From a virus: a stretch of DNA of 29,971 bases. Positions 398-27,785 of the stretch are shown here, one piece after another. The translations under genes and the position numbers were made by a program. Location of the stretch: positions 1 to 29,971 of the IMG/VR virus record IMGVR_UViG_3300032278_000082. One strand, given 5' to 3'. How positions within the stretch are numbered: position 1 is the first letter of the stretch; each line of letters starts with the position of its first letter. The notes under the pieces are model-generated. The model had not been told where the DNA came from. It worked only from the letters and a program-made list of their open reading frames with translations, and ran no database searches.

Positions 398-1608
398 TAC
401 AGAAACAAATATTAGCCTTGTGTTTATATAGTGAATTTTGGAAAGATGCAAAACGAATACTCAATATTAAAATGTTTCCAAAAGAATTGAATAGTATATT
501 TACTGCTATATCTGATGCTCATAAAAAATATGAAACTAGTTTTAATGTTATGGAATTACTGTTGGTTCATCGTGATAAATTTCCAGCTCTGCCACAAACA
601 ACAAGAAATGAAATTGAAGATGTGATAAAAAGTTTGGAACTTGTAAAAATTCCACATGTAAAATTAGCAAAAGATGTTCTTTATAATTTTTGGAAAAGAG
701 ATAAAGCTAGAGAGCTAGGGGAAAAAGCTATTGACATTTATAGGGGTAAGGACAATATAACATTTGGTGAATTACAAAAAATTATTGATGATGCAACAGA
801 TAAGGAAAAAATTGAAGGTGGTGCTACATATTCAATAGTCAATGAAGATATTGATGAATTACTAAAAGAAGCTATGACAGATACAGAATTTAAATTTAAT
901 TTAGAGCCTTTGTCCTTAAACATTGAGGGATTATCTCGTGGGCATTTTGGAATTATACTTGCAAGACCGGAACTTGGAAAGACAACATTTGCTTGTCATT
1001 TAGCACAGGAGTACATTCGTCAAAAAAAGAAAGTTGTGTATTGGGCAAATGAAGAACCGGCTGTGAGAATAAAATTAAGAATTTTACAAAGTTATTTTGA
1101 ACGAGAAAAGCATGAAATGGTGACAGATATTAAATATTGCAGAAAAATATATCACCAAGTAATAAAACCATATCTTATTGTTCACGATTGTGTGGGGACT
1201 GACATTTCTGAGATTACTGAACATGCAGAATTAAACAAACCGGATGTAATATTTATTGATCAGCTAGACAAAATAAAAATTGCTGGTTCGTATGACAGGG
1301 GTGATGAAAAATTAAAAGCCTTGTATGTGCAATCTAGAGAAATTTGTAAAAAAGCAAATTGTCTAGTATGGGCAGTTTCACAAGCTAGTTATAATGGTGA
1401 AAATAGACAATTAATAACATATGCTATGCTTGACAATTCTAGAACAGGCAAAGCTGGTGAAGCTGATTTTATAATTGGAATTGGTAAACCTTCAGAGGTA
1501 GATACTAATGGAACTAGAATATTAAATGTCAGTAAAAATAAAGTTAATGGGTGGCATGGATATGTTACCTGTAGAGCAGAATTTCTTATAGGGAGGTTTT
1601 ATCCATAA
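394..1608 (+). CDS. DnaB-type replicative DNA helicase
   Basis: A 404-residue RecA-fold helicase expected to unwind DNA ahead of the phage polymerase. The first ~150 residues are a charged helical region, similar in position to the DnaB N-terminal domain, with no primase motifs. The ATPase core has a Walker A/P-loop ARPELGKTT (190-198), a DnaB-like catalytic glutamate segment WANEEP (E220/E221), and Walker B DVIFID (284-289) followed by QLD. A late segment GKAGEADFIIGIGK resembles the DnaB H4/arginine-finger end region. Walker A is slightly divergent (E before LGKT, where DnaB usually has a small residue). The gene starts in an ATGA overlap with the zinc-ribbon gene, and its stop overlaps the next start by one base. 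The primase partner is not visible here; it may lie upstream or be host-supplied. Confidence 0.85.
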   Translation: MIQKQILALCLYSEFWKDAKRILNIKMFPKELNSIFTAISDAHKKYETSFNVMELLLVHRDKFPALPQTTRNEIEDVIKSLELVKIPHVKLAKDVLYNFWKRDKARELGEKAIDIYRGKDNITFGELQKIIDDATDKEKIEGGATYSIVNEDIDELLKEAMTDTEFKFNLEPLSLNIEGLSRGHFGIILARPELGKTTFACHLAQEYIRQKKKVVYWANEEPAVRIKLRILQSYFEREKHEMVTDIKYCRKIYHQVIKPYLIVHDCVGTDISEITEHAELNKPDVIFIDQLDKIKIAGSYDRGDEKLKALYVQSREICKKANCLVWAVSQASYNGENRQLITYAMLDNSRTGKAGEADFIIGIGKPSEVDTNGTRILNVSKNKVNGWHGYVTCRAEFLIGRFYP

Positions 1609-2156
1609 TGTTTATGGTACTTGATGTAGAAACAACATTTAAAGAAGTTAATGGCAAAACTAATCCAAGTCCTTTTGTAGAAGGAAATAAATTGGTATCT
1701 GTTGGATTACAAAAATTTAGAACAGAAGTAAATCCTGTTGAGTATTATAAGTTTTCTCACGAGAGTGGTGATGAGAGTGAAAAATCTCACAAAATAATAA
1801 ATAACTATTTGAAAGAAACAAAATTATTGATTGGGCATAACATCAAGTTTGATTTGCAATGGCTACTAGAATGTGGTTTTGCATATGGTGGGGCAGTCTA
1901 TGACACAATGGTTGTTGAATATTTAATGGCTGGTGGGATAAAATGTGATTTGACATTAGATGGCTGTTGCAGAAGACGAGAAATAAAAAGACCGGAAAAA
2001 GATTTAGTACGTGACTATATGAACAAAGGAATAGATTTTCATAGCATCCCTTGGGGTATTGTGAAAAAATATGGTATTGCAGATATAGAGGCTACTAAAT
2101 CCTTATCTGATTATCAGGTAGGGCTATTAAAAACATCTTATAAGGAGTTCTCATGA
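1608..2156 (+). CDS. Stand-alone DEDDy 3'-5' exonuclease (proofreading subunit)
   Basis: A 182-residue protein matching the exonuclease domain of family-A DNA polymerases. Exo I is LDVETT with D6 and E8, Exo II is GHNIKFD with N78 and D82, and Exo III is YGIAD with Y155 and D159, so all four acidic metal ligands and the tyrosine are present. It would remove mismatched 3' ends in trans or in a complex. The polymerase two genes downstream lacks this domain, which implies that a normally fused exonuclease-polymerase has been split here. ATG 1608 overlaps the helicase stop by one base, and the gene ends in an ATGA overlap with the next. RNase T/DnaQ-like housekeeping is an alternative, but the DEDDy signature and context favour proofreading. 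Confidence 0.85.
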   Translation: MFMVLDVETTFKEVNGKTNPSPFVEGNKLVSVGLQKFRTEVNPVEYYKFSHESGDESEKSHKIINNYLKETKLLIGHNIKFDLQWLLECGFAYGGAVYDTMVVEYLMAGGIKCDLTLDGCCRRREIKRPEKDLVRDYMNKGIDFHSIPWGIVKKYGIADIEATKSLSDYQVGLLKTSYKEFS

Positions 2157-2596
2157 TAAGACCAGTATATGAGACTGAAAAAGACAGAAAGATGGAACAA
2201 GCAATTATCAATGAATTATCAGATGCTTGGAAAATCTTTTATCAAAAACTACCGATTAAGCACAGACTTGATTTTGCATTGTTAGATGACAAAAAAGCTG
2301 TTATTGCTTGGGCGGAAGTTAAACGAAGAGATAATGATTCAACTACATATGATACATACATGTTAAGTTTGGATAAATATATGAGTGGCATGCAACTGTT
2401 TAAATTAACAGGTTTACCATTTTATATGGTGGTAAAATTTAGTGATGGTCTGTATTATTGTGAAGTGAGTTTGTTGAGCTATGCACAATTAAATATATCA
2501 TTTGGTGGCAGAACTGACAGGGGTGATTCCCAAGATGTTGAGCCGTGTATTTATTTTGATAGTAATCTTTTTAAAAAAGTTATAAGTAAGGAATGA
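2153..2596 (+). CDS. Small PD-(D/E)XK-like nuclease candidate between exonuclease and polymerase
   Basis: A 147-residue protein with no firm family recognition. Residues 38-57 read as an RLDFALL strand, a short turn, then AWAEVK, giving D40...E55-V-K57, the spacing of a PD-(D/E)XK nuclease active site. The upstream helix with E15 and E21 could supply the additional acidic residue. It sits exactly between the exonuclease and polymerase genes, joined to both by ATGA overlaps, so it is translated with the replication machinery. An endonuclease or DNA-end-binding replication role is inference. It could also be an inactive structural relative that tethers exonuclease and polymerase. Confidence 0.5.
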   Translation: MIRPVYETEKDRKMEQAIINELSDAWKIFYQKLPIKHRLDFALLDDKKAVIAWAEVKRRDNDSTTYDTYMLSLDKYMSGMQLFKLTGLPFYMVVKFSDGLYYCEVSLLSYAQLNISFGGRTDRGDSQDVEPCIYFDSNLFKKVISKE

Positions 2597-4125
2597 CATT
2601 GATACCAACTTGTAAATTATCCCTTGAAGTAACAAGAGTGCTGACAGATATTGAAGTGGCAGGACTGAAAATTAATAAGGATACTTTACAGAAAATTAAA
2701 GATGATTATACCAAAGAGTACAACAAGTTAAAAAATGATTTGTTGATACTTGGCAAAGAAGTTATGGGGGATACTCCATTTAATCTTAATAGTGCAGATG
2801 ACAGGTCAGCTATTGTTTATTCTAGAAAAGTAAAAGATAAGAAAATGTGGAAAGGCTACTTTAATCTAGGTTCTGAAATGAGAGGTAATACTAGAAAAGC
2901 AAAAAGACGAATAACTCTTACAGATAATCAATTCAAACGAAGTGTAAAAAGTATGACACAAGTCCAAGCAGTTACTATTGCACACAGATGTGTGGATTGC
3001 AAAGGAACAGGTAGAGTTGCTAAAAAAAGAAAAGATGGAACATATGGAACAGCACGATATATATGTAAAAATTGTAGTGGTAAAGGTATTTATTATGAGG
3101 CAACAAAAGTAGTAGCGGGTTTAAGAATTGGACCTCGTTCTGTTTACGATGTTTCTGCTAATGGTTTTAGAACTGATAGTGAAACTTTACAGGAATTATC
3201 TCTTACTTGTGGTCTTAGAGCAAAAGAATTTATAAAAAAATATGTGAGATATTCTGCTATAAAAACATATTTAAAAACTTTTGTTGAGGGTATAGAAAAA
3301 GCAGTAAATAAAAATAATTTTATTCATCCACAATTTATGCAATGTATTACTGCTACAGGAAGATTGTCATCTCGTAGCCCAAACTTTCAAAATATGCCAC
3401 GAGGTGTAACATTTCCTGTTCGTAAAGCTATAGTTAGTCGCTTTCAGAATGGCTTGATATTAGAGGGCGATTATTCACAACTAGAATTTAGAGTGGCAGG
3501 ATTTTTAAGTAAAGATAAACAGGTATATGATGATGTTGATAATAACGTTGATGTTCATAGTTACACAGCAGAGGTTATGGGTATCTCTAGACAAGAAGCA
3601 AAGGCTCATACATTTAAACCATTGTATGGGGGAACACAGGGAACAGAAAAACAAAAAGAATATTATAGAAAATTTAAAACTAAATATTCAGGAGTTGCCG
3701 ATTGGCACAAAGAATTACAAGAAGAAGCTATACTATACAAACGAATAAAATTGCCTAGTGGTAGAGTTTATAAGTTTCCATATGTTGAGAGAACTAGATA
3801 TGGAACTGCATCCCATGCAACTTCTATAAAAAATTATCCGGTGCAGGGATTTGCAACTGCTGATCTTTTACCAATAGCACTTGTTAAGACACACAAATCT
3901 ATGAAAGCATTAGGATTGAAATCTTTGATTATAAATACTGTTCACGACAGTATTATTATTGATGTTCATCCGGATGAAAAAAAAGCTTGTATAACTGCAC
4001 TACAACAAGGTATGTATTCAATAGTTCAAGAGTGTAAAAAAAGATACAATATAGAATATGATATGCCAATAGGTACAGAATTGAAGATTGGTGAGGATTG
4101 GTTAAATTTAAAAGAAACAGTTTGA
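2593..4125 (+). CDS. Family-A DNA polymerase with DnaJ-type zinc-finger insert, no exonuclease domain
   Basis: A 510-residue DNA polymerase I-type enzyme. Polymerase motif A is DYSQLEFR (D293-R300), motif B is R333-x3-K337-x3-F341-x3-Y345-G, and motif C is VHDS (H451, D452), so both catalytic aspartates are present. The residue equivalent to E. coli position 762 is Phe341. In the N-terminal third two CxxCxGxG units (C133/C136 and C158/C161, each followed by GxG) form a DnaJ-like zinc finger inserted before the palm/fingers. From memory, a partial DnaJ domain in the polymerase was reported for phage HMO-2011 and relatives. The 3'-5' exonuclease domain is absent here and encoded by the gene at 1608. 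The start lies in an ATGA overlap, and the stop overlaps the -35 hexamer of the following promoter. Confidence 0.93.
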   Translation: MTLIPTCKLSLEVTRVLTDIEVAGLKINKDTLQKIKDDYTKEYNKLKNDLLILGKEVMGDTPFNLNSADDRSAIVYSRKVKDKKMWKGYFNLGSEMRGNTRKAKRRITLTDNQFKRSVKSMTQVQAVTIAHRCVDCKGTGRVAKKRKDGTYGTARYICKNCSGKGIYYEATKVVAGLRIGPRSVYDVSANGFRTDSETLQELSLTCGLRAKEFIKKYVRYSAIKTYLKTFVEGIEKAVNKNNFIHPQFMQCITATGRLSSRSPNFQNMPRGVTFPVRKAIVSRFQNGLILEGDYSQLEFRVAGFLSKDKQVYDDVDNNVDVHSYTAEVMGISRQEAKAHTFKPLYGGTQGTEKQKEYYRKFKTKYSGVADWHKELQEEAILYKRIKLPSGRVYKFPYVERTRYGTASHATSIKNYPVQGFATADLLPIALVKTHKSMKALGLKSLIINTVHDSIIIDVHPDEKKACITALQQGMYSIVQECKKRYNIEYDMPIGTELKIGEDWLNLKETV

Positions 4126-4150
4126 CACAATTGTTTATACATATTATATT
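4122..4150 (+). promoter_or_regulatory. Sigma70-like promoter in the only gap of the left operon
   Basis: A perfect -35 hexamer TTGACA lies at 4122-4127 and overlaps the polymerase stop codon. It is followed by a 17-base spacer and TATATT (4145-4150) as -10. The next gene starts at 4191 behind AAGGAG (4177-4182). A short inverted repeat TTAAT-N4-ATTAA (4151-4164) directly follows the -10 at the expected start site and might be an operator, but in such AT-rich DNA it could be chance. The promoter would give the protein at 4191 and the downstream nucleases expression independent of the polymerase operon. Confidence 0.65.
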
Positions 4151-4190
4151 TTAATTATCATTAATACTTTTTATATAAGGAGTATAGTTT

Positions 4191-9100: not shown

Positions 9101-9236
9101 CGATAAAGATTTAAAGATAGTTCTTGATGGATGGAATACATCATATGAGAATACCCATCAGCTTTGCTCATTTGTAAAGTGGGCTAAAGCTTATATGGAT
9201 ACGTTTTCAAAAGATGCAAAAAATATGTTAGGGTGA
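9012..9236 (+). CDS. Small hypothetical protein, last gene of the rightward operon
   Basis: A 74-residue protein (MNRKHEATIAS at its start), with aromatic and polar residues in the second half (DGWNTSYENTH, FVKWAKAYMD). No family is recognised. It overlaps the preceding gene by 89 bases in another frame. Only a weak ribosome site (AGAGAAA) is seen, so its reality rests on the unbroken frame filling the last 136 bases before the convergent late operon. Its stop lies 6 bases from the stop of the facing spanin gene. Confidence 0.55.
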   Translation: MNRKHEATIASINFKINSYGQIITEVKSVNDKDLKIVLDGWNTSYENTHQLCSFVKWAKAYMDTFSKDAKNMLG

Positions 9237-9242
9237 GTTAGA

Positions 9243-9464
9243 TTATTGACAGAGTTCTAATTTCTCTGATAATTTGAGTTGTTCGATCATCCAAGTATCT
9301 ACAAGAGTATCCTGTAAATTTTCTATCTTATTGATGACCTCTTCGGGTGGGTAGGGGTAACTAGGGCAGTAACTACTTGCCTGCTTTCTCACGCAACTTG
9401 TCGTAAGCAGCAGTAGCAGAAACAATCCTAGTACTAATTTTATCGGCTTCTTTATGTTTTTCAT
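9243..9464 (-). CDS. Rz1-like outer-membrane spanin lipoprotein
   Basis: A 73-residue protein with a signal-peptidase-II sequence: basic N-terminus (MKNIKKPIK), a Leu-rich hydrophobic stretch and the lipobox LTTSC with C24 as the lipidated residue. The mature ~50 residues contain a Pro/Tyr-rich patch (CPSYPYPPEE) and a helix. Its start lies inside the gene at 9373-9639 in another frame (92-base overlap), the typical Rz/Rz1 arrangement. It should join the inner-membrane partner to fuse inner and outer membranes in the final step of lysis of a Gram-negative host. It is the last gene of the leftward late arm within this window. Confidence 0.8.
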   Translation of the reverse strand: MKNIKKPIKLVLGLFLLLLLTTSCVRKQASSYCPSYPYPPEEVINKIENLQDTLVDTWMIEQLKLSEKLELCQ

Positions 9465-9639
9465 TGTCTAATTCCGCTTGTTTTAATAGTTGGTCCTTCT
9501 TACCTTGATTTTTGGCAATGTACCATAACATCAAGGGTTGTAATATCTTAAATATAAATCCAAATATAAATTTACTTATCATTGTTTTTGTCAAAATGGT
9601 TAGAAATACGGATATAAATTTCGAAAAATAACCACGCAA
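9373..9639 (-). CDS. Rz-like inner-membrane spanin
   Basis: An 88-residue protein with an N-terminal Phe/Ile-rich membrane anchor (roughly residues 20-42) followed by a charged helix with coiled-coil character (KKDQLLKQAELDNEKHKEADK), the layout of an Rz inner-membrane spanin that spans the periplasm. The frame can start at TTG 9639; an internal ATG at 9582 would give 69 residues and a more conventional short N-terminal anchor. Neither has a clear ribosome site. The 3' part overlaps the Rz1-like lipoprotein gene in another frame. The function call rests on this topology and pairing, not on sequence identity. Confidence 0.75.
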   Translation of the reverse strand: MRGYFSKFISVFLTILTKTMISKFIFGFIFKILQPLMLWYIAKNQGKKDQLLKQAELDNEKHKEADKISTRIVSATAAYDKLREKAGK

Positions 9640-9843
9640 ATATGAGAAACCATATATGATGGTGTTTTATGCAAAAAAGCACGTTTTCTGTATCTAAGCA
9701 GTCATTCATTTCAGTTTTTCCTAATATAAGCCCCGTGGAGAGCTAATTTGACCCCTAGGCATACAAATGCCTATGAATTATAACTTTGCTCTCTACGGGC
9801 TAAAAATCCTTCATAATAGCGGTTTCGGTGTTTTTGAGCTATA
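9640..9843. other. Only sizeable gene-free gap of the window
   Basis: These 204 bases between the holin-like and spanin genes hold the nested stem structure at 9729-9801. The flanks (9640-9728 and 9802-9843) contain no convincing gene, promoter or T-tailed hairpin. A 17-codon open frame on the minus strand near 9659 has no support. Confidence 0.6.
9729..9801 (+). ncRNA. Nested stem-loop structure; candidate structured RNA (strand uncertain, + favoured)
   Basis: In the 204-base gap between the holin and spanin genes, AGCCCCGTGGAGAGC (9729-9743) pairs with GCTCTCTACGGGCT (9788-9801): 14 pairs with one bulged C (9734). Inside it, TAATT (9744-9748) can pair with AATTA (9776-9780), and TAGGCAT (9756-9762) pairs perfectly with ATGCCTA (9767-9773) around an ACAA loop. 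The pair 9737/9794 is G-U on the + strand but a C-A mismatch on the - strand, which favours a + strand RNA antisense to the late genes. No T-run follows on either strand, so it is not a simple intrinsic terminator. No known RNA family is recognised. Confidence 0.55.
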
Positions 9844-10035
9844 TTAGTCGCTATTTTTAGCTTTACCGAAATTCGCACCTGCAAAGTTCACAATTTTCCA
9901 TACCCAGTCGATGATTTTGTCGTCAGATTTGTTAGGTGTGATTGTAGCAACAATTGCTAAACCTCCAACAATCTTAAACAGTGCATCGAGTAGCTGTGGA
10001 AGTTGTGGTAACTGTGCTAATACCCATTCTACCAT
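9844..10035 (-). CDS. Holin-like small membrane protein
   Basis: A 63-residue protein with one hydrophobic segment (about residues 15-33, LLDALFKIVGGLAIVATIT) followed by TPNKSDDKIIDWVWKIVN and a GANFGKAKN C-terminus. This pattern is common in small phage membrane proteins that are often annotated as putative holins. A strong AAGGAG ribosome site precedes the start on the minus strand. It lies between a coiled-coil/TM protein and the spanins, so a role in timing inner-membrane permeabilisation is likely. No endolysin is adjacent. The holin function is inferred from size, topology and neighbours. Confidence 0.68.
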   Translation of the reverse strand: MVEWVLAQLPQLPQLLDALFKIVGGLAIVATITPNKSDDKIIDWVWKIVNFAGANFGKAKNSD

Positions 10036-10036
10036 A

Positions 10037-10255
10037 TTAAGCTCCTTTTAACATTTTAAAAATTATGGTGATTAGCCAACCTGCTAATGCACCAAAGATT
10101 AATATTACTCCAAATGCACCCTTCCAACGGTTGGCAGTGGCATTTAAAATATTTACATCTTTATTAAGATGTGAAACGTTTCGTTTTATGTCGTTCAACT
10201 TTGTTTGTATTGTTGCAATTTGTGCGGAAATATGTCTGAGTTCTTTTTCGTTCAC
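10037..10255 (-). CDS. XhlA-like coiled-coil protein with C-terminal membrane anchor
   Basis: A 72-residue protein. Residues 1-42 form an amphipathic coiled-coil helix (ISAQIATIQTKLNDIKRNV), and residues 47-66 (AFGVILIFGALAGWLITIIF) are a transmembrane segment with a short basic tail. This arrangement is typical of hemolysin XhlA-type and similar phage lysis accessory proteins. It starts at GTG (10253-10255) in a GTGA overlap with the stop of the 1670-residue gene, with GAGG upstream. It lies 1 base before the holin-like gene, so the two probably act together at the inner membrane. Confidence 0.65.
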   Translation of the reverse strand: MNEKELRHISAQIATIQTKLNDIKRNVSHLNKDVNILNATANRWKGAFGVILIFGALAGWLITIIFKMLKGA

Positions 10256-13200
10256 GACCTAGCCTCAAGCAATAAACTTTTTATTTGATTATCAGTATCT
10301 TCGAATTTCTTCTTGAGTTTTCTTTTTAATCCCGGTGGTCCAACATCTTCAAAAGGTTCTTTAGTTTCCTGACGTTCTACTTCCTTCTTAGTTGGAATAT
10401 AAAATTTTTTCATTTCTTCTTTGTAAGTTGTGTGTATATCTGGGCTTGTTGATAATCCAGTATATACTATGTCATAGGGCACACCATCACCAAACATATT
10501 TCTTACTTCTTCTCTTTTTTCTGGTTCTACTAGGCTATCCATTGAAAGATATCCATATTGATTGTTAGAATGACCCTGTGATGCTTCTTTTATTTTAAAG
10601 TCTTCTACGGCATCCGGTCCAGCCACTCTTCCTAGCCAACCTAAGAACCACGGTCTAAAAACTTTATTGCTAAAGGTTAGTTTCTCTACTTGATCACTGA
10701 TTACCATATCATATAAAACTTTTGTTGCTTTAGGATTTGTGACCAATTCCATTAACAATTGATGTTGCCTTGCTCTAAATTCATTTATTGCTAATTCAGA
10801 CAATACAAAACGTGGTGAAACAACTCCTTTTGATATGTTGTACCCCCTACCAAGTATTGCTTGTACAGTGTAATCTACAGGTAGCCCTACCATACTTAAA
10901 CTTTTTGGTGTGGCACTTAAACTGAAACCTAAACTAAATATATCCTTTAATCTTTGTAACTCTTCTGGTTTATATAATCTAGATAATATTTCGTCATTAT
11001 TCAGTAAGTAATCAATTCCTGCTGCAAAATCAACAGATTGTGATGTATCTAATTTAGATGCTAAATCTTTTAAATCAGGTCTATTTTTCAGTTTTGTTTT
11101 AAAGCCTGTTTGCACATATTGCATATGATCTTGCCATAATAGTCCTTTAAGTGCACTTGCATCGTTTTCTCGAATATATATAGTTTGTTTACCCTGTCCT
11201 GACCATCCGGGGTCACCCTTTTCTAAAGATGCCTTACCTGTAGCTGTCCATTCCTCTACTTTTAATTTTTCTCCACCTTTAAATTCCTCAATATGCTTTC
11301 CAGTTTTTTGATATATTTGTTTGAATCCTATTTCAATTGGAACTGCACCTTCAGTTCCCTTTTTTACTTGAATTGCTCGTAGTAATGTATCCATTACTTC
11401 AGCATTACCACCCTTTTGACTACTTTGTAATAGTGTTTCTACAAATTTTGTTTTATTTCCCGGTTCTCCTGCTTTTGCAAATAAATCTTGTAGTGTGTCA
11501 TGTCCTTTTTTATTTACATAATTTCTTGAATTTATTCCTGTGGCTATTTTCACAGATAAGTCTTCTGCTTTATTAAATATAGTTGTAATTGCATCGTGAG
11601 TAAGTAAACTTCTTCTTGCCCTGTCGGTAACATCATCTAACGCAGAATGTGAAGGTTTAATAGCTTCATATATTATATCACCAAATGAATCTTTATGTGT
11701 GACTCCTTGTGCAAAGTTAAGAACTTGTTTTCCATCTTTTTGTTTTATTGTATCAAAATCAATAGCTTTTAAATCATTTTTCCCCAGACTTAAATCCTCT
11801 AATATTCCTGCTTGCATTGTTCTGTCTGCTCTTACTCTGTGTTTCCTAAATGTTTCTGTGTGTTTTTCAAGACCATATTTTGTTACTATATTTTCACCAT
11901 CTCTATTTAAGGTAAAATTAGTTAAGAATAATCTGTCATAATCTTGTCTTCTAGATGTTGCAGAACTAGACAGGTCTTGGGAATATAGAAAACGTTTGTG
12001 AAAATTTTCTGGTTTTGTTGCTTCAGTAATTACCGGACCTTTTTTCATAATTTTATATCCGGTATTTTTATAAATAGCATCTGCTATTAAGTCCCTATAA
12101 GCTCCTTTAGCTCTTTTGGATTGCTCCTGTATACTTTGACTTATTTTAGATCCAAGTACTTCATCTCCTGCAAATGCATACTCAGTAGCATCATCAATTA
12201 TATGATTATCCAGATTGTGTTTTATTTGCTGTGTAACCCATCCATCTTTATGAAGAGAAGGATCTGATAGTGTTTTTCTGTATTGTCTGCCGAGTTCGCT
12301 GGATAGTTCATTGAAATTTTTTAAAGATATTTCATAGTTATTTCCAAAATATTGTTGATAGAATTTAAGTGATCTATCCTCTCTTGGTTGTTTAGCTATT
12401 TTCCACAGACTATCCCAATCCACTGCTTTATTTGCAGTAATTGCTGTAATTGTCTCCTCTGCAGTATCTGGTGCAATTAATCCGTCTTCTAACAGGCTTT
12501 GTACAAAACTTGTTTTTTTCTCAGTTGTACCTCGGGATGTAAAATTCTTAAAAGCTTTTGTTCTTTGATTTAACATAAACTGCTTAAAGCTAATTTCTCC
12601 GCTAGGCATTTTTCTGATAAATGGAGCAGTTCCCATATGTGTACCTAATGCCTCAGTATATAGATTATCTAGATTGAATAATATTTTATTGTTATTAGTA
12701 TCAAAAAGATTGACTAATAATCTATGACTTTCGTAACCTTCGATACCTCCATATATACCACTTACTATACTTTTTCTATTATCTATAACATCATCCAATA
12801 ATTTGGCGGACTGTTCAGCTCGTTTTGATTGATTAAATATTCGTCTTCCATCTTGCATATCAACTATTGCGGCAGGATGGTTGGCTAAATCTTCTTTTAT
12901 TCCAACAGATAAAAATTTATTGTTTAGTCTTTGATTTTCTAATACAGCTTTTGCTTTTCCTATATCTTTACTTGAAATTAGTGGGCGAGCTTCTTGATCT
13001 AATGTTTTTCCTTCTCTTTTTAAAAATTCTTGTTCAGGATCAATCTCATATAGTGTTTTATTCAACCGCTTTTGTGTTGTGCTTATTTTGACTTGATCTT
13101 TAAGATTATTTTTGTATGTTTTTTTAGAAAATGTGCCCTTTAGTTTTATCAATAAATTTTTTGTTTCAACATTATCTGTCTGATGTATCATATCAGTAAA

Positions 13201-15264
13201 TTTATCAAATAATAATGTATCAGATTCAACATGAAGGTCTATTACTTTTTGATGAGCAGGGTACATATTTGTTGATTCACCTGACCATCTATTTATTTTT
13301 ATAGAATTTCTTGCGTGGGCTTCATAAGCAGCTAATGTAGGACTAGGGAATAATTGTGCAGATAATATACCCATATCTTCGACAGGTATACCTAATCTTT
13401 CTAGTCTGTGAAATGTATAAATTGCAGAATTTACCATTTCATCATACTGGTCCATATCCATTCCTTTTAAAGCTAGTGCCATTTTTCCTAATACCCCTAT
13501 TTCTTTTTCACTCATATTCATTTCATATTTATAGAATCCTTTATTATCTTTACGAAATCCAATACCTTTTTGTAACATAGATGCTCGTGTTTCTAGAGAA
13601 TATTTTTTTACATCAATATATTCTTTTTTCATAAGCCCTTTTTTTACTAATACATCTTGTAAAGGCTGCAGTGCATACTTTCTAGTTACGCCCATTACTC
13701 CTGTTGTTGTTTTAGGAGCCATTTCATGCAATAGAAGTGCTGAAAAGGCAATTGATTTTTTTGCTGGTAGAGCTACAGTAGCTGGTAAGAATATTGCCCC
13801 AGCAAAATCACCAAAAAGAGCTGCTTCTGGTCCAATCATATTATGGAATAATGTATTACCTGCTGCTGCTCCTGCTATTATTGATTCTTCTGTAAGATAC
13901 CATTTTGCAAAATTTTCTGATCGTCTAAGTTGTGCGATTTTTACACGTGTTGGAATTGTTTTTCCTAGTTTAACTGGATATGCAAGAATAGGTGAAATTG
14001 TTCCGGATACTTTTGAATTTTTTATTTTATTTAATTCTGTTAATAGTGTTGCTTTGTATTGTGCAGGGGTAGTTACATATTTTGTTTTTGTTTTTCCTTT
14101 ATCTTTTCCGCTTTTTACCTTGTATTTATATTTTGTTTCAAATTTTCCGCCTACTTTTTTAATTTGTTTGAATGTGTTATTAAGAACTGTTGATTGAACG
14201 CCACCATATAATAGGAAAGGTGCTTGAAATGTTTTATATATTCCATATTGTTCAAAAGCATATCCTGCGTATCCATATGGATATACTTCCATTCCGGGTT
14301 GAAGTCCTCTAGTTATATCAAATGCTGCACCTCCTTTTCCTTTCCAAAAAGAACTTAGTTCTTCTTCATCAAAGTATTCAGCAGTTGGATCAAGAATTTG
14401 TTTTTTTGTTTGAAACCAGCTGGCTTCATAATTTGGATCACCTTTTAATTTTTTTGTTGCCCATTCTGCACCCGCTTGTCCTAGTGTTTGTACGCCTAAT
14501 GCACCTCTAGCTATACCCCTTGTCCATACGGGAGGGAATAAACTTCCTACTCCTGTATATGGTACATCTGATGTAAATATAGATGGATAAGGATTTAGAG
14601 CTCGTTGGTAGGCATCTTGTTGACCCGGAGTTAAATCGTCATATTTTTTTTCTGCTTCCATTTCAATTATATTTCTACGACCTGCTTTTGTCCATGTACT
14701 TAATTCATGCTTAGGCAACATACCCATATATTCAGGGTGGGGGAAATAACCTTTTCCCGGTTCTTCTTCAGTTTCCAATGGTTTATCTTCTCCTGTTCTT
14801 GCTATATCTCTTTGTAAAAAGTAATTTTGGTATTTATGTAAATTACCCATCCATTCAGGAAAATATGGATTTTGTCCTGTTAATTGTCCGCTTTTTATCC
14901 CGTGATTTAGGGTAATTAAATCTTTCATAGTGTCGTAACCTAAATTATACTGTTCGGGTAATTTTTCACTTTTTATTCGTTGTTGCATTTTTTCATCGGT
15001 AAGCCCGGCTCTGTCGGGGTGAGTTAATTTAGGTAAATATACACCAAAATTTTCTTCAGCTCCAGCTCCTCTTTTACCGTAGATAAATCCTTCTTTTAGG
15101 TTTACACTACCCACATTCAGATCAGGGTATTGTTCTTTTAAAGTTTCATAAGAATCCCACACTGTATACTGCTCTTCAAGAGGTCGATAAGTTGCACTTT
15201 TCTGTGCCCAATCTATCGTCTTAAATGTGTCTGATGTTAATATATCTTGTAAATTACTTGGCAT
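10252..15264 (-). CDS. Giant (1670 aa) putative internal virion / DNA-ejection protein
   Basis: The largest gene in the window. No enzymatic signature was found: I looked for lytic transglycosylase, peptidase and polymerase motifs. The N-terminal ~250 residues are Pro/Tyr/Gly-rich (KGYFPHPEYMG, VGSLFPPVWTRG). Around residues 460-530 there are Ala/Gly-rich hydrophobic stretches (ESIIAGAAAGNTLF, AIFLPATVALPA) that could contact membrane. The middle is long, charged and helical. Near residue 1500 there is another apolar region (ATPKSLSMVGLPVDYTVQAI), and the C-terminus is highly charged. Its size and place as last virion gene before the holin match T7 gp16-type ejection proteins, but sequence similarity is not evident. 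Its stop overlaps the next start (GTGA). Confidence 0.7.
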   Translation of the reverse strand: MPSNLQDILTSDTFKTIDWAQKSATYRPLEEQYTVWDSYETLKEQYPDLNVGSVNLKEGFIYGKRGAGAEENFGVYLPKLTHPDRAGLTDEKMQQRIKSEKLPEQYNLGYDTMKDLITLNHGIKSGQLTGQNPYFPEWMGNLHKYQNYFLQRDIARTGEDKPLETEEEPGKGYFPHPEYMGMLPKHELSTWTKAGRRNIIEMEAEKKYDDLTPGQQDAYQRALNPYPSIFTSDVPYTGVGSLFPPVWTRGIARGALGVQTLGQAGAEWATKKLKGDPNYEASWFQTKKQILDPTAEYFDEEELSSFWKGKGGAAFDITRGLQPGMEVYPYGYAGYAFEQYGIYKTFQAPFLLYGGVQSTVLNNTFKQIKKVGGKFETKYKYKVKSGKDKGKTKTKYVTTPAQYKATLLTELNKIKNSKVSGTISPILAYPVKLGKTIPTRVKIAQLRRSENFAKWYLTEESIIAGAAAGNTLFHNMIGPEAALFGDFAGAIFLPATVALPAKKSIAFSALLLHEMAPKTTTGVMGVTRKYALQPLQDVLVKKGLMKKEYIDVKKYSLETRASMLQKGIGFRKDNKGFYKYEMNMSEKEIGVLGKMALALKGMDMDQYDEMVNSAIYTFHRLERLGIPVEDMGILSAQLFPSPTLAAYEAHARNSIKINRWSGESTNMYPAHQKVIDLHVESDTLLFDKFTDMIHQTDNVETKNLLIKLKGTFSKKTYKNNLKDQVKISTTQKRLNKTLYEIDPEQEFLKREGKTLDQEARPLISSKDIGKAKAVLENQRLNNKFLSVGIKEDLANHPAAIVDMQDGRRIFNQSKRAEQSAKLLDDVIDNRKSIVSGIYGGIEGYESHRLLVNLFDTNNNKILFNLDNLYTEALGTHMGTAPFIRKMPSGEISFKQFMLNQRTKAFKNFTSRGTTEKKTSFVQSLLEDGLIAPDTAEETITAITANKAVDWDSLWKIAKQPREDRSLKFYQQYFGNNYEISLKNFNELSSELGRQYRKTLSDPSLHKDGWVTQQIKHNLDNHIIDDATEYAFAGDEVLGSKISQSIQEQSKRAKGAYRDLIADAIYKNTGYKIMKKGPVITEATKPENFHKRFLYSQDLSSSATSRRQDYDRLFLTNFTLNRDGENIVTKYGLEKHTETFRKHRVRADRTMQAGILEDLSLGKNDLKAIDFDTIKQKDGKQVLNFAQGVTHKDSFGDIIYEAIKPSHSALDDVTDRARRSLLTHDAITTIFNKAEDLSVKIATGINSRNYVNKKGHDTLQDLFAKAGEPGNKTKFVETLLQSSQKGGNAEVMDTLLRAIQVKKGTEGAVPIEIGFKQIYQKTGKHIEEFKGGEKLKVEEWTATGKASLEKGDPGWSGQGKQTIYIRENDASALKGLLWQDHMQYVQTGFKTKLKNRPDLKDLASKLDTSQSVDFAAGIDYLLNNDEILSRLYKPEELQRLKDIFSLGFSLSATPKSLSMVGLPVDYTVQAILGRGYNISKGVVSPRFVLSELAINEFRARQHQLLMELVTNPKATKVLYDMVISDQVEKLTFSNKVFRPWFLGWLGRVAGPDAVEDFKIKEASQGHSNNQYGYLSMDSLVEPEKREEVRNMFGDGVPYDIVYTGLSTSPDIHTTYKEEMKKFYIPTKKEVERQETKEPFEDVGPPGLKRKLKKKFEDTDNQIKSLLLEARS

Positions 15265-18060: not shown

Positions 18061-18106
18061 AATTTTTCTCCTATAAATAATTAATGATTAGTAATGAATC
18101 TTTATT

Positions 18107-21173: not shown

Positions 21174-21752
21174 TTATATTTTCCTCCAACATAAGTTAAA
21201 TGATATCGATATTCTGTCCTCTTTGGACATATTTGTCTCTACGGAATGTTGTAACCATCCCGGGAATACAAGCAAATCTCCTGCTTTTGCGTCAATTGTT
21301 GTTCTGTCGTTTCTCATTTCGTTTTTTGGTGTCCTAACTGGATATATTTGTACTCGAGGATCGTATAATACGATTGCCCCTGAATCTTTTGGTTTTTTTA
21401 CATAATAAACTCCGGATAAATCTGCTCCCGGATGTATATGCATTTTATTTTCTGCGTGCTGTGGGTTAAGGTTTAGCCACGAAGTGTCCATGTCTAGGCA
21501 AAATCCTTCCTCGGGTTTAAGTTCACTTACTATAGATATAAACAGTTGTTCTGTAGATTTCATCCACGGTTTTGCTTCTTCTAGTTCGTGAAAGTTTTGT
21601 CTACTTTGCCATCCTCTGACTACAGACCTTAACTCTGTATCGGGATCTTTTTTCTGTAGCTCATATGTAAACTTTTCTAGGTCTTTGTTTATCTGAACAT
21701 TATCTTTAATATGTGCGTTCCATAACCAAGTAGGAAATATATCTGAGTGCAT
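21174..21752 (-). CDS. TIGR02466-type putative 2OG-Fe(II) oxygenase
   Basis: A 192-residue protein of the putative 2-oxoglutarate/Fe(II) oxygenase family best matched by TIGR02466. HIHPGADLSGVYYV (H105, H107), SGAIVLYDPR and GDLLVFPGWLQHSV (H169) followed by R180 in EDRISISFNL give the iron- and 2OG-binding residues, and the first ligand pair reads H-x-H rather than H-x-D. It would hydroxylate an unknown substrate. The start overlaps the stop of the second oxygenase gene (TAATG) with AGGAG upstream. Three oxygenases of different subfamilies flank the propeller proteins, so modification of virion proteins or host-surface sugars is a possible but unproven role. Confidence 0.82.
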   Translation of the reverse strand: MHSDIFPTWLWNAHIKDNVQINKDLEKFTYELQKKDPDTELRSVVRGWQSRQNFHELEEAKPWMKSTEQLFISIVSELKPEEGFCLDMDTSWLNLNPQHAENKMHIHPGADLSGVYYVKKPKDSGAIVLYDPRVQIYPVRTPKNEMRNDRTTIDAKAGDLLVFPGWLQHSVETNMSKEDRISISFNLCWRKI

Positions 21753-22378
21753 TATTTCTCCTGTGCGAAATATTTATCGGGATGCTTATCATTCTTCCAT
21801 TCTGTATTCGGTCCATTCGCATCTACATAATGAAGAAATACTTGTGCTAACTTTGTCCCCTCGTTGTAAGGTTCTCTCCAATGTTCTACTTCGCATCCTT
21901 TGTATACCATTGCATCTCCTTCTTCTAGCATTACACGAGCTATATGACCTTCTCCTAAGTTATGTTCTTTTTTATAGTCTGTATTGTCGGCATATATTGC
22001 CCAAATCTTTTCATTTCTTTTTTTTCTAAGACATACTGTCATTGATATTTCACAACTATGTCTATCTTTATGCTTTTCAAGAATATCACCAGCTTTATAA
22101 ACTCTAAAATATGTATATGTTGGTAATAACTTCATACCTGTTGCTGATTCTATTTTTGGTAACAGAAAATCTTGTAGGTTTTCCATTACAAAGTCACCAT
22201 AAAAGCTTGGTGTGTTTGGAACTTGTTCATCATCAATAGTTCCATCAGGTTTTTTACGAACTCCTCCTATTCTTGCTTTGTTGTAGGCGTGTATTCCTAT
22301 GAAATCTAATAGTTCTCCTGATAATATTTTTGGAACTACTAAATAACCATTATCTTTAAAAAATTTTGCATTAAACAT
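21752..22378 (-). CDS. 2OG-Fe(II) oxygenase (prolyl-4-hydroxylase-like fold)
   Basis: A 208-residue protein. The iron triad is H103-K-D105 (in EKHKDRHSCEIS) and H166 (CEVEHWREP); K176 in EGTKLAQVFLHYVD probably takes the place of the 2OG-binding Arg. The N-terminal NGYLVVPKILSGELLDFI segment is typical of phytanoyl/prolyl hydroxylase-like enzymes seen in marine phages. The substrate is unknown. It overlaps the upstream 110-residue gene by 8 bases and the next oxygenase by 1, so all three are co-translated. It is not a close copy of the other two oxygenases here. Confidence 0.82.
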   Translation of the reverse strand: MFNAKFFKDNGYLVVPKILSGELLDFIGIHAYNKARIGGVRKKPDGTIDDEQVPNTPSFYGDFVMENLQDFLLPKIESATGMKLLPTYTYFRVYKAGDILEKHKDRHSCEISMTVCLRKKRNEKIWAIYADNTDYKKEHNLGEGHIARVMLEEGDAMVYKGCEVEHWREPYNEGTKLAQVFLHYVDANGPNTEWKNDKHPDKYFAQEK

Positions 22379-22703
22379 TATTGTCCCACCACTCTTCGGC
22401 TTGATCTGTTACTTCTTCTTCAGTCATCTCAATCATGTTTTCTGGTAGATGTTGGTCTTCCTTTTCTGGGTCTGGTTTTTTAAACGGATAGCGATCATGT
22501 AGATCTAACTGTCTTTCTACAAAACTTTCTTTTGTATAACGAGTAACAGTCTCTGGTACTTTTACTTCTGGATCTTTAACTACACCTATGTAGGCATACT
22601 TGTCGGGATCATACCATACTCCACCTTCATCTAACCACAAAGGTCTGATTTTTCCGCCTTGTCGTTCTTTATCCATTTTATATTCACATATTATATTTGC
22701 CAT
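22371..22703 (-). CDS. Small acidic hypothetical protein
   Basis: A 110-residue protein with no recognised family, behind the strongest ribosome site of the late arm (AAGGAGG). The N-terminal half is strand-like and aromatic (IRPLWLDEGGVWYDPD). The C-terminal ~40 residues are very acidic and end in MTEEEVTDQAEEWWDNN. It lies between a propeller gene and an oxygenase gene, overlapping the latter by 8 bases. Such small acidic proteins next to fibres can be assembly chaperones; that is only a suggestion. Confidence 0.65.
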   Translation of the reverse strand: MANIICEYKMDKERQGGKIRPLWLDEGGVWYDPDKYAYIGVVKDPEVKVPETVTRYTKESFVERQLDLHDRYPFKKPDPEKEDQHLPENMIEMTEEEVTDQAEEWWDNNV

Positions 22704-22730
22704 ATTTTTTCCTCCTTTTTAATAATTTTT

Positions 22731-23897
22731 TTATACACAAAGCATACCCAGATCATCTTTAAGATTTGCAATTTCTCCAATTTCTGCCCCACTAGTTGAT
22801 GAACCAAATGCAAACCTCTCTACACCATCTCCTCCCGGTCCATATCTTGAAGCAGTATGACCATGAGTTAATGTACTTGCTCCCCTATGGGAACCATAAG
22901 CATTGGGAGTAGAAGATTCTCCGATATCTGTTGATGGAGTTGAACTTGCAAATGGAAATCTTTGTATTACATCTACTTCATTCAAAGGTGGTGGGCCACC
23001 TCCTCCGCTTACATAACCATAACCACCGTCAACATCTGAATTACCATGACGAGCAGACCTAGAATCTGTAAGCTCTCCAGTATCTGTTGAATCGGTTGTT
23101 GTTGATTTTTGGAATCTTTCAATGTTATCGTTTGTAGCCGCAATCCATCCACCTGCCACATAAGTATGTGTTGTATCATCGTGGCTAGTCATAAAATCTT
23201 TTCCAGCTGCCATTTCTGCAACATCAGCTGCTGCAAAAGGAGCTGCAAAAGTAAATTTATCAATAGTATTTACATATCTTGTAGCGGGAGCTTCTTGTCC
23301 TCCAAGTGTATATCCTTCAGTTGGACTCCAACCACTTGATCCATAAGCCCATACTCCTCGAGCTAAGTCTCCTTGATTAGATGTTGATACAGGTGGACCT
23401 GCAGTAGGAAAACTTGTTACTTCTGCATAATGTGTATCACCCGGATTACTATATCCTCCTGCTGTAAAACCTACATTACCCGGTCCTACATAAGATGCCA
23501 TACCAGCTATACCTTGTGCCAATTCTCCTACATCAGCTGTAGGATAAGGAGCAGCAACAGGCCATCTGGAAATTTTATCAGACATTGCTGTTGGACCCGG
23601 TGTAGCACCACCTAGTTCATAAGCATAAGTTAAACCCTGCCAAGCTGGAGAATGGTTAACATCGTCTCCTTCTTGTCCTCTCCACGTAGCATCTTCAGCG
23701 GAATCACTTGTACAAATAAATACTTGTCCACTTGTTGTATTTACCCAAGTTGTACCTGCAGCATATCCTAATCCTGTGTCATCTGTTGCTGCTGGATCAC
23801 TTGCACTTGTTACAAATAGTTTCTTTGATACTTTTCCCTGAGTTACTGAACCCGAGAGAAAATGCCTTCCTTCAAATCTTCTTGGTATATATTTCAT
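22731..23897 (-). CDS. Six-repeat beta-propeller (Kelch-like) fibre protein, copy 3
   Basis: A 388-residue protein. Residues 1-80 (start KYIPRRFEGRHF, then TDDTGLGYAAGTTW and AEDATWRGQEGDDVN) form a domain shared with the genes at 25413 and 26622, probably the virion anchor. Residues ~83-388 hold six repeats of about 50 residues with a Y..GG turn, an [I/V].RFPFA[S/A] strand and a D[V/I]GE turn (for example ISRWPVAAPYPTADVGE and VIQRFPFASSTPSTDIGE), as in Kelch/RCC1-like propellers. A likely role is receptor or glycan binding at the particle surface. It begins 6 bases after the stop of the oxygenase gene at 23904 and lacks a clear ribosome site, so coupling is likely. It is closest to the copy at 26622. 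Confidence 0.72.
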   Translation of the reverse strand: MKYIPRRFEGRHFLSGSVTQGKVSKKLFVTSASDPAATDDTGLGYAAGTTWVNTTSGQVFICTSDSAEDATWRGQEGDDVNHSPAWQGLTYAYELGGATPGPTAMSDKISRWPVAAPYPTADVGELAQGIAGMASYVGPGNVGFTAGGYSNPGDTHYAEVTSFPTAGPPVSTSNQGDLARGVWAYGSSGWSPTEGYTLGGQEAPATRYVNTIDKFTFAAPFAAADVAEMAAGKDFMTSHDDTTHTYVAGGWIAATNDNIERFQKSTTTDSTDTGELTDSRSARHGNSDVDGGYGYVSGGGGPPPLNEVDVIQRFPFASSTPSTDIGESSTPNAYGSHRGASTLTHGHTASRYGPGGDGVERFAFGSSTSGAEIGEIANLKDDLGMLCV

Positions 23898-23903
23898 AAT
23901 CTG

Positions 23904-24518
23904 TTATTTAAAATGCGGTCCGTGTACCCATCCGACTATACAATATCTAGTACCTCGTGTTACAGGGGTTACTCGATGGCGTACATAGGATGGAAACATA
24001 ATAATTGTTCCTTTTTTTCGTGTTTCTTCATTTGGTGGCATACCTACTATTTCTAACATTCCACCATCATATTCTGATGGATCAGATAGCTGTATGCTAA
24101 AACTAACTTTTCTGTTACTAAAAGCAGCACCATAATCCAAGTGCCAGTCGTAGTGACCATTTTCTTCCGCCTTATATCTAAGTACATTAGGCGGATCTAG
24201 TGCCATGTTAAATCCAGTTAAATCTAATTTCCATATTTCAGAATTAGCTCTTATTATTTTATCAGCCATTACGCAATGAGGAAAATCTTGTAAATCTTTA
24301 TAATTTCCTATTTTTAATTTTTGATGCATTACTGATCTAATTTTTTTATCTACTCTTCCCTCTGGCTTATTAGGATTTCCGCCAACTTGAGCATCTACCC
24401 ATTTATCTTCCTCAATACTGTTTCTTACAGCATTAATAAATTCATCATTAAATTCTTTTTTCCAAATAACCTGCCAATCAACTCGTGGGTTGGCAACTTT
24501 TTCAAATGTATAGAACAT
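23904..24518 (-). CDS. 2OG-Fe(II) oxygenase (PKHD-type)
   Basis: A 204-residue enzyme. The iron triad is H126-L-D128 in HYDWHLDYG and H181 in SYVRHRVTPV, with R191 in GTRYCIVGW for 2OG binding; GGMLEIVG and GTIIMFPSY are the expected core strands. This is the P4Hc/PKHD-type hydroxylase pattern common in marine phages. The substrate is unknown. The start overlaps the stop of the coiled-coil gene (TAATG), and the propeller gene follows 6 bases downstream, so coiled-coil protein, oxygenase and propeller are probably made together. Confidence 0.87.
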   Translation of the reverse strand: MFYTFEKVANPRVDWQVIWKKEFNDEFINAVRNSIEEDKWVDAQVGGNPNKPEGRVDKKIRSVMHQKLKIGNYKDLQDFPHCVMADKIIRANSEIWKLDLTGFNMALDPPNVLRYKAEENGHYDWHLDYGAAFSNRKVSFSIQLSDPSEYDGGMLEIVGMPPNEETRKKGTIIMFPSYVRHRVTPVTRGTRYCIVGWVHGPHFK

Positions 24519-25412: not shown

Positions 25413-26615
25413 TTAATCTGTCCAATTTCCTTGTGCACCGTGAACTGTTTCTGTCGTTTCTCCAACATCTGTAGCATTAGCATCAGAAGCAGTAGAAAAT
25501 TTTGATATTTGGTCCAAGCTTGCGTTTGGGGGATAAGTTGCACCACCTATTTGATAACTAACAGTTGGGGCAGATGCACCTCCTCCTTCATACATTCCTT
25601 GAAGTAAATTTCCAACATCTGTATTACTGGTAGGAGCAGTCATTGGATATTTTTCTATTAAATCTGTAAATGGGCTATGACTACCAAAATGGTAGGCATG
25701 GGTTGTTGAAGTGCTTGATCCCATTTTATGAGTAGCATAAGATGCTTCTCCATAATCAGTTTCATTTCCAGATGATATTCCTAATGAAAAATAAGCTAAT
25801 GTATCAACTTCAGTTGGACCGGACCCGACTTCTCCACCAGTTTGATATGCTCTGGAATTTACTAAATCTGTGTGAGCACCAAAATGTGCTATATCAGTTG
25901 CTAAATCTCCACCAGAATCTGATGTCGAAGCAGGGGATGCAAAAGTTACCTTTTCTATTTGGGTAGTAAAAGGTGGACTAATTGAAGTCGCACCTCCACC
26001 GCCACCCCATACAAACCAATTTGAAGAATTACAAGCAGTTCCGCCAAAAGCATGTTTGTTTCCTATTTCTCCAATATCTGCAAGTGTTGCTGGAGAAGAA
26101 ATACCGTGTCTTACCATTTCATCAGTAGGTGAATTGCCCGGAGTTGTAGTTATTCCACCATACCAGTAAACATAACTGGCAGGATAACCATCTTTTGCAC
26201 ATCCAGTTTGCCAACCTTTTACACCTAAACTTGGGGATGTTTCTCCTATATCAGCAGAATCTCCTTCTGATGCTACTGACATCATTTGTATATGGGCAGA
26301 TTGATATGTAGGCGATGGATCTCTAAACCCACCACTTCTACCTATTTTTGAATTTGCTTGATATAAAAAAAGATTAACATCATCACCTTCCATATTTAAC
26401 CATGTTGCATTTTCAGCAGAATGGTCTGAACAAACATACATATCTCCATTTGTTGAGTCTATCCATATAGTACCTTGGTTATATCCTAATCCTGTGTCAT
26501 CTGTTTTTGCAGGTGCTCCTGCGTTTACGTGAATGACTTTTTTGCTCATGTCACCACTTTCTAGTGTTTCGTCTTTTAATTCGTGTGCTTGTATTTTTTC
26601 AGGGATATATTTCAT
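25413..26615 (-). CDS. Six-repeat beta-propeller (Kelch-like) fibre protein, copy 2 (divergent)
   Basis: A 400-residue paralogue. The N-terminal ~80 residues carry the shared anchor (KYIPEKIQAHELKD at the start, then TDDTGLGYNQGTIWID and AENATWLNMEGDDVN). The propeller part has six repeats with the same [Y/W]..GG / I.KF..ASP / D[V/I]GE layout, for example QIEKVTFASPASTSDSGG and LIEKYPMTAPTSNTDVGN. The loops differ strongly from those of the other two copies, which are more alike. GGAG lies about 12 bases upstream of ATG. Divergent loops on a conserved scaffold fit alternative receptor specificity. Confidence 0.7.
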   Translation of the reverse strand: MKYIPEKIQAHELKDETLESGDMSKKVIHVNAGAPAKTDDTGLGYNQGTIWIDSTNGDMYVCSDHSAENATWLNMEGDDVNLFLYQANSKIGRSGGFRDPSPTYQSAHIQMMSVASEGDSADIGETSPSLGVKGWQTGCAKDGYPASYVYWYGGITTTPGNSPTDEMVRHGISSPATLADIGEIGNKHAFGGTACNSSNWFVWGGGGGATSISPPFTTQIEKVTFASPASTSDSGGDLATDIAHFGAHTDLVNSRAYQTGGEVGSGPTEVDTLAYFSLGISSGNETDYGEASYATHKMGSSTSTTHAYHFGSHSPFTDLIEKYPMTAPTSNTDVGNLLQGMYEGGGASAPTVSYQIGGATYPPNASLDQISKFSTASDANATDVGETTETVHGAQGNWTD

Positions 26616-26621
26616 AATTTT

Positions 26622-27785
26622 TTAAACTCCGTGACAGCAAACATCATCTAAACCAGAAGCAACTTCTCCAACGTCAGTTCCACTTGCTGGCGATCCAAAT
26701 GCAAATCTTTCTTTTACGTTTCCGGGAGTTGTTCTACTTATTGTAAAACCATGGGTTTGTGTGCTGACACCTCTATTTGCTCCATAAGCAATAAAAGGTG
26801 AAGCATGTTCTCCCACATCTGCTCCTGTAAAAGGGCTAGAAAATGCAAATCTTGTAATTTCATCTACTTCTGCTGGGGTTGTGCCTCCACCGCTTACAAA
26901 ACCATAGCCATTAGAGTTATCTGTATTACCACAAGCTGCATAAGTAGTTCGACTTAATTCTCCAACATCAGATGAATCAGTAGAAGTTCCTTTTTGGTAT
27001 CTTATTCCCTTGTCTATTCCAGAGCTCGGTGGCGAACCACCAACAAGATAAGTATGTGTATCGTCATCATGAGATGTGGGCCATTCTCTATCAGTTTCAG
27101 CATGCTCTGCTACATCAGATGATGAAAAAGGGCTTACAAGTGCATAATCTTGAATTGTATCTCCTGCTCCCGGACCATCATTTCCACTAAATAAATATCC
27201 TTTTGTTGCACTCCAACCACTTCCAGCATAAGCTGTTGAGTTATTTACATTTCCTATATCAGATACAACTGCTGGTGATGCTGCTGGAAAACTTGCAACT
27301 TCGTCTCTAAGTGTTACAGGAGCAATTCTTCCACTTGCTATAAAACAAGTAGCCGCAGATTTTTCTACTGCTGGACCTAAACTATACATTTCATCAGATA
27401 AAGTTCCAATATCAGCAACAGGGTAAGGTGCAGCTATTGGCCATCTGGATATTTCATCAGTTTTAGTTGGAGAACCCGGAAGATTTCCACCGCCTGTTTC
27501 GTAGCCATATGATAGTGATTGCCAAGCAGGAGAAATATTTATATCATCAGAGCCATCTTGTGCTGCCCATTGAGCTGCTTCATCAGAAGAACCAATACAA
27601 GTATAAGTTTCGCCATTAGAATAATCTATCCATAGACATCCAACAGCGAAACCTGTTCCTTCATCATCGTCTCCGTCTGGAGCCGCTGTAGCCAGATGTA
27701 TAAAACTTTCTGCAACTGCTGTATGATCTACAGCATTGTCAGCCACATCTTTACCTTCTATTTGTCTAGGTATATATTTAGGCAT
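26622..27785 (-). CDS. Six-repeat beta-propeller (Kelch-like) fibre protein, copy 1
   Basis: A 387-residue paralogue with the shared anchor domain (PKYIPRQIEGKDV at the start, later GTGFAVGCLWIDYSNGE and AAQWAAQDGSDDIN) and six propeller repeats (for example ISRWPIAAPYPVADIG, EITRFAFSSPFTGADVGE and KERFAFGSPASGTDVGE). It aligns along its length with the gene at 22731, including SPAWQ and the ISRWP blade. It is preceded by AAGGAAA before ATG and followed 6 bases later by copy 2. A surface adhesin or fibre role is inferred from the repeats and the late-gene context. Confidence 0.72.
   Translation of the reverse strand: MPKYIPRQIEGKDVADNAVDHTAVAESFIHLATAAPDGDDDEGTGFAVGCLWIDYSNGETYTCIGSSDEAAQWAAQDGSDDINISPAWQSLSYGYETGGGNLPGSPTKTDEISRWPIAAPYPVADIGTLSDEMYSLGPAVEKSAATCFIASGRIAPVTLRDEVASFPAASPAVVSDIGNVNNSTAYAGSGWSATKGYLFSGNDGPGAGDTIQDYALVSPFSSSDVAEHAETDREWPTSHDDDTHTYLVGGSPPSSGIDKGIRYQKGTSTDSSDVGELSRTTYAACGNTDNSNGYGFVSGGGTTPAEVDEITRFAFSSPFTGADVGEHASPFIAYGANRGVSTQTHGFTISRTTPGNVKERFAFGSPASGTDVGEVASGLDDVCCHGV

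Follow-up and report, generated by a model that had tools for sequence, protein, structure and literature searches.

A nested hairpin ahead of the lysis genes of an uncultured marine phage, most likely a cis element of its late mRNA

Gene content and order around the lysis region

The window, by which we mean the whole 29,971-base stretch of DNA analysed here, is an entire IMG/VR record. Packaging genes are missing from it, and it probably represents a fragment of a genome. In its replication genes it resembles HMO-2011-type phages: the deposited phage nearest to its helicase is Pelagibacter phage HTVC033P (36% identity), and its polymerase is 48% identical to that of the same phage. The family-A DNA polymerase is split (1608-4125, + strand) into two ORFs, one of 182 aa for the 3'-5' exonuclease and one of 510 aa for the polymerase, which match the beginning and the end of the undivided 678-aa polymerase of HTVC033P (45% and 48% identity, respectively), and a PDDEXK_14 endonuclease gene (2153-2596) lies exactly between them. 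The structural block on the - strand includes two 2OG-Fe(II) oxygenase genes within 21174-24518 (21174-21752 and 23904-24518); the gene at 21752-22378, next to an oxygenase gene, looks similar by eye and has no Pfam match. Also on the - strand are the genes of three similar proteins of about 390 aa (22731-23897, 25413-26615 and 26622-27785) in which GG.../DVGE motifs recur. They are probably paralogues in tandem, of a tail-fibre or propeller-like type; the product of 22731-23897, compared with Pfam, gave no match.

Early genes occupy the + strand up to position 9236, and late genes the - strand thereafter. Read along the late strand, the lysis region consists of a 72-aa gene, a 63-aa gene, the element described below, a 45-aa ORF and the genes of a probable i-spanin and a probable o-spanin (Table 1). 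The end of the 45-aa ORF overlaps the start of the i-spanin gene, whose product has an inner-membrane anchor followed by a coiled-coil-like stretch and matches no family. The first-pass annotation had placed the element between holin and spanin genes. The spanin genes do lie downstream, but the 45-aa ORF intervenes, and the adjoining 63-aa gene is not the holin candidate, the weak holin match belonging to the 72-aa gene beyond it.

Because the 45-aa ORF separates the element from the i-spanin gene, the gap itself covers 9710-9843 and not 9640-9843, and the element occupies its middle. This is the largest non-coding gap of the window, but not the only sizeable one, as had been proposed, since gaps of 65 nt (4126-4190) and 46 nt (18061-18106) also exist.

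Table 1. Features of the lysis region and parts of the hairpin (positions in the window; L002 and L003 are the two relatives discussed in the text).
Feature	Position	Strand	Basis
Non-coding gap with the element, 134 nt, largest in the window	9710..9843	.	ORF map
45-aa membrane-protein ORF, one likely membrane segment; first gene downstream	9572..9709	-	kept in L002 and L003
Probable i-spanin	9373..9579	-	position, overlap with o-spanin
Probable o-spanin lipoprotein	9243..9464	-	weak match to PHROG 456 (Rz-like spanin)
63-aa gene, immediate late-strand neighbour upstream of the element	9844..10035	-	PHROG 9685, function unknown
72-aa gene	10037..10255	-	weak holin match, PHROG 689
Nested hairpin RNA element, probable late-transcript cis element	9729..9801	-	folds, alignment, covariance model
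Outer stem, 5' arm AGCCCGTAGAGAGC	9788..9801	-	folds, three-sequence alignment
Outer stem, 3' arm GCTCTCCACGGGGCT, one bulged G	9729..9743	-	folds, alignment
Middle helix, 5' side	9775..9780	-	three-sequence alignment
Middle helix, 3' side	9749..9754	-	three-sequence alignment
Inner 7-pair hairpin UAGGCAU-UUGU-AUGCCUA	9756..9773	-	folds, alignment

A stable nested hairpin without a U-tract

The nested structure of 73 bases that had been reported from inspection was confirmed: the outer stem carries one bulge, the middle part is AU/GU-rich, and the inner stem, with 7 uninterrupted pairs, is closed by an ACAA (+ strand) or UUGU (- strand) loop. Folded alone, it reaches a minimum free energy of -32.2 kcal/mol on the + strand and -30.5 kcal/mol on the - strand, the window copy thus folding 2 kcal/mol better on the + strand. 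The corresponding shuffle z-scores are -6.57 and -4.96, and none of 200 shuffles was equally good. It is also the most stable 80-nt fold on both strands in a scan of the whole window, and within the 1-kb lysis region the value of -30.5 was reached by none of 120 local dinucleotide shuffles (best shuffle, -29.1). In an alignment of three sequences, 90% of the cells of the 30 modelled pairs are paired. The hairpin structure is real.

No RNA family in Rfam accounts for it, in agreement with the first-pass annotation. Searches against Rfam 15 returned no match to the element at the gathering thresholds and nothing credible at E-values up to 10, where the best chance matches scored 17.3 and 13.9 bits, their cut-offs being 45 and 49.9; a tRNA/tmRNA search found none. 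No intrinsic terminator was predicted in 9200-10300, so that, as had been noted, none follows the early genes. The stem continues into UUAUAUUAGG on the - strand and AAAAAUCC on the + strand, and the element is not an intrinsic terminator, because neither strand provides a U-tract. As a kind, the element is familiar, an intercistronic mRNA hairpin, and its sequence is absent from the RNA catalogues searched.

Strong hairpins elsewhere in related genomes proved to be different objects. HTVC033P also has one near the convergence of early and late genes (~15146-15225), but it ends in a U-tract and is not homologous to the element of the window, which is set back from the convergence by about 490 nt. 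The strong hairpins of loci L088-L098 were likewise set aside, as they lie within coding sequence at a different place. One structure recurs among these loci: a near-perfect stem of 17 pairs, ACCCTTAGCAATTAGAC...GTCTAGTTGTTAAGGGT, at ~9630-9715 of L090 and also in L088, L089, L092, L097 and L098. It falls within the terminal part of the last early gene, where early and late genes converge.

Conservation of the hairpin and its strand

IMG/VR was queried with the 63-aa protein, the i-spanin, the C-terminus of a 1670-aa protein, a metallophosphoesterase and a 147-aa early protein. Only three distinct genomes covering the spot were obtained, namely the window, to which L001 is identical, and the relatives L002 and L003. 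Both relatives carry the element between the same genes, with 82-88% identity to the window copy, whereas the 19 nt downstream of it are 53-58% identical; the 42 nt upstream are 88% identical in L002 and 60% in L003. Most unpaired interior positions are also unchanged among the three sequences. The first-pass annotation had staked its proposal on the stems being kept in relatives with the same flanking genes, and both relatives covering the spot do retain the fold.

A covariance-model search, as had been suggested, was carried out with a model (R1) covering 9727-9801. It recovered the copies of window/L001, L002 and L003 at 94-99 bits, but none beyond these in two sets of related loci of about 0.88 Mb and 0.30 Mb (~1.2 Mb together), nor a further element in 12 whole records including HTVC033P. 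The lysis regions of the more distant relatives examined contain no comparable intergenic hairpin, and phage records searched by DNA gave no match, as did an exact DNA pattern taken from the window. A relaxed pattern run on IMG/VR and GTDB genomes retrieved the known contigs and two chance matches (L108 and L109), which lie inside coding sequence, show no fold and were discarded as copies. Compared with phage records, the 63-aa protein gave weak partial matches only. With no copy found beyond those of window/L001, L002 and L003, the element appears restricted to this close group.

An overlapping reading frame does not explain the conservation. A 37-aa ORF (9771-9884, - strand, TTG start) extends over the 5' arm and is open in L002, but in L003, where indels restore the KHRNR frame, a stop precedes the element.

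Selection on the structure was assessed by distributing substitutions of matching types randomly over the element and folding the products. The fold survives the 9-13 substitutions separating the sequences far better than random substitutions would allow: on the - strand, the fraction of random placements folding as well was 0.0025 from the window to L002 and 0.0005 from the window to L003, and a non-significant 10% when starting from L002 and ending at the window. One pair changed on both sides, 9775/9754, which is C-G in the window and U-A in L002 (C27-G48 to U27-A48 in the alignment). A pair-shuffle control on the three rows had no power, 179 of 500 shuffles attaining the observed value; the structural evidence therefore rests on the substitution test and on position.

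The substitutions also bear on the strand. Three C-to-U changes keep pairing on the - strand, turning G-C into G-U, where the + strand would have C-A; altogether, L002 has three stem pairs, and L003 one, that are G-U on the - strand and C-A on the + strand. L002 folds at -31.9 kcal/mol on the - strand and -21.4 on the + strand (10.5 better on the - strand), and L003 at -38.3 and -32.3 (6.0 better). The first-pass annotation had argued from a wobble pair for an RNA on the + strand, antisense to the late transcript. That argument concerns a single pair of the window (A8-C65 on the - strand, U-G on the + strand), and this A-C mismatch, in the 3' arm, is A-U in both relatives, whose own wobble pairs favour the opposite strand.

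We accordingly regard as very unlikely that the functional molecule is a + strand RNA opposing the lysis mRNA, whether transcribed past the end of the early operon or started at a promoter-like site (9246-9273). Such an RNA would be consistent with the good + strand fold of the window copy, with the early genes lacking a terminator after them, and with a strong sigma-70-like match just after the early operon on the + strand (TTGACA-16-GATAAT, 11/12), but its fold would be 6-10 kcal/mol weaker in the relatives, at the cost of the C-A oppositions just described. The promoter-like site, moreover, lies inside the coding end of the o-spanin gene, its -35 box reads TTGGCA in L002 and L003, and such sites are as numerous in shuffles as in the region. 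The stretch of DNA in which the site lies hardly varies among the relatives.

The same drift to G-U argues against a palindrome acting at the level of DNA, be it a protein-binding site, a replication or recombination signal or a mobile palindrome. Its location, free of genes and close to where the early genes give way to the late ones, would suit such a role, but in L002 the arms have drifted to G-T mismatches that spoil the DNA palindrome and keep the RNA pairing. The element also occurs only once in the window and in each of the L001 and L002 records, and no flanking duplication was seen, so that we give this explanation very little credence.

The wobble pairs and the folding bias of the relatives thus point to the - strand. 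Most probably, the element acts in cis on the late mRNA, where it precedes the 45-aa ORF and the two spanin genes.

Possible roles in the late transcript

The other proposal of the first-pass annotation, that the hairpin serves the processing or stability of the lysis mRNA, agrees best with the conservation and the - strand bias of the relatives. Late-strand genes flank the gap on both sides, and an intercistronic position is plausible because these genes are tightly packed and co-directed. Among the possible roles, we tentatively favour, at close to an even chance, a hairpin within the late polycistronic mRNA that is processed by RNase III, as at the sites of phage T7. The late transcript would run on the - strand through the element, between the structural and holin part and the lysis genes, and host RNase III would recognise its long irregular double strand. 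The cut would split a long structural mRNA from a short lysis mRNA; the paired ends left over would protect the upstream message against 3' exonucleases and the downstream message against decay that depends on the 5' end, and expression of the lysis genes would thereby be set separately.

T7 has about ten RNase III sites, irregular hairpins of ~60-75 nt between co-directed genes of a compact genome, much like the element. Immediately before its Rz-like spanin gene 18.5, T7 also has a structured gap of 94 nt, which holds the RNase III site R18.5; here, the structured gap is followed by the 45-aa ORF and then by the spanin genes. The T7 R1.1 site is a 60-nt hairpin with an asymmetric 4/5 internal loop (PMC6121014), and the element, at ~75 nt, shares its succession of outer stem, irregular middle and inner stem. 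In vitro, R1.1 is a substrate of the RNase III of the alphaproteobacterium Sinorhizobium meliloti, although this enzyme cuts it in part at different positions and prefers longer duplexes (PMC6121014). T7-type signals have a long irregular stem of about two turns, 20 or more pairs in all, and an asymmetric internal loop of fixed form at which the cut falls. The element, with 30 modelled pairs, has a stem of that length; its internal loop is predicted as 4/2 in L003 and in other forms in L002 and the window.

Unlike the T7 sites, to which no sequence relation is apparent, this candidate site has an internal loop whose exact form varies from one relative to the next, and no other hairpin of the kind occurs in the window. 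Against processing by RNase III also stand the small number of distinct sequences, only three, and the lack of the element in more distant relatives. On transcript handling in HMO-2011-type pelagiphages, nothing was found in the genome paper searched (PMC9038755). If a processing role fails, the element would be an ordinary mRNA hairpin.

A role that we hold possible, though distinctly less probable than processing by RNase III, is that of a decay barrier in the late mRNA, with no cut by RNase III. The stem would stop 3' exonucleases from entering the structural mRNA, in the manner of REP/BIME hairpins, or would shield the 5' end of a lysis mRNA made by another cut in the AU-rich flanks. A stem this strong suffices to stall exonucleases without a U-tract. 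The same structural and strand evidence speaks for a barrier as for an RNase III site, and the AU-rich flanks agree with it, but sequence does not tell the two apart, and the conserved region of the inner loop, with most unpaired positions unchanged, is not needed for a simple barrier. REP/BIME hairpins are likewise strong, intercistronic within operons and devoid of a U-tract; they occur in several copies, whereas the element is phage-borne, with a single copy in each of the window, L001 and L002 records, and contains an inner hairpin and a conserved interior.

That conserved interior, together with a 3' arm ending ~20 nt ahead of the ATG of the 45-aa ORF, might instead suggest a regulatory leader of the lysis genes, through which a protein, a ligand or the ribosome would control the translation or timing of the 45-aa ORF and the spanins. 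We consider this rather improbable: the ribosome-binding region and the ATG lie outside the hairpin, their predicted accessibility varies among the three relatives, no conserved alternative in which the ribosome-binding site is paired was observed, and no Rfam regulator matches. More doubtful still is a version in which a leader restricted to this genus would sense a phage or host factor through the conserved interior, uncouple the spanins from the structural operon of a streamlined marine phage and so time lysis.

Should processing by RNase III be confirmed, the element would be a concrete and testable signal for RNA processing in an uncultured marine phage, a relative of the HMO-2011-type pelagiphages. 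It would also suggest that unrelated podovirus-like phages have come to set the spanin message apart by means of a hairpin.
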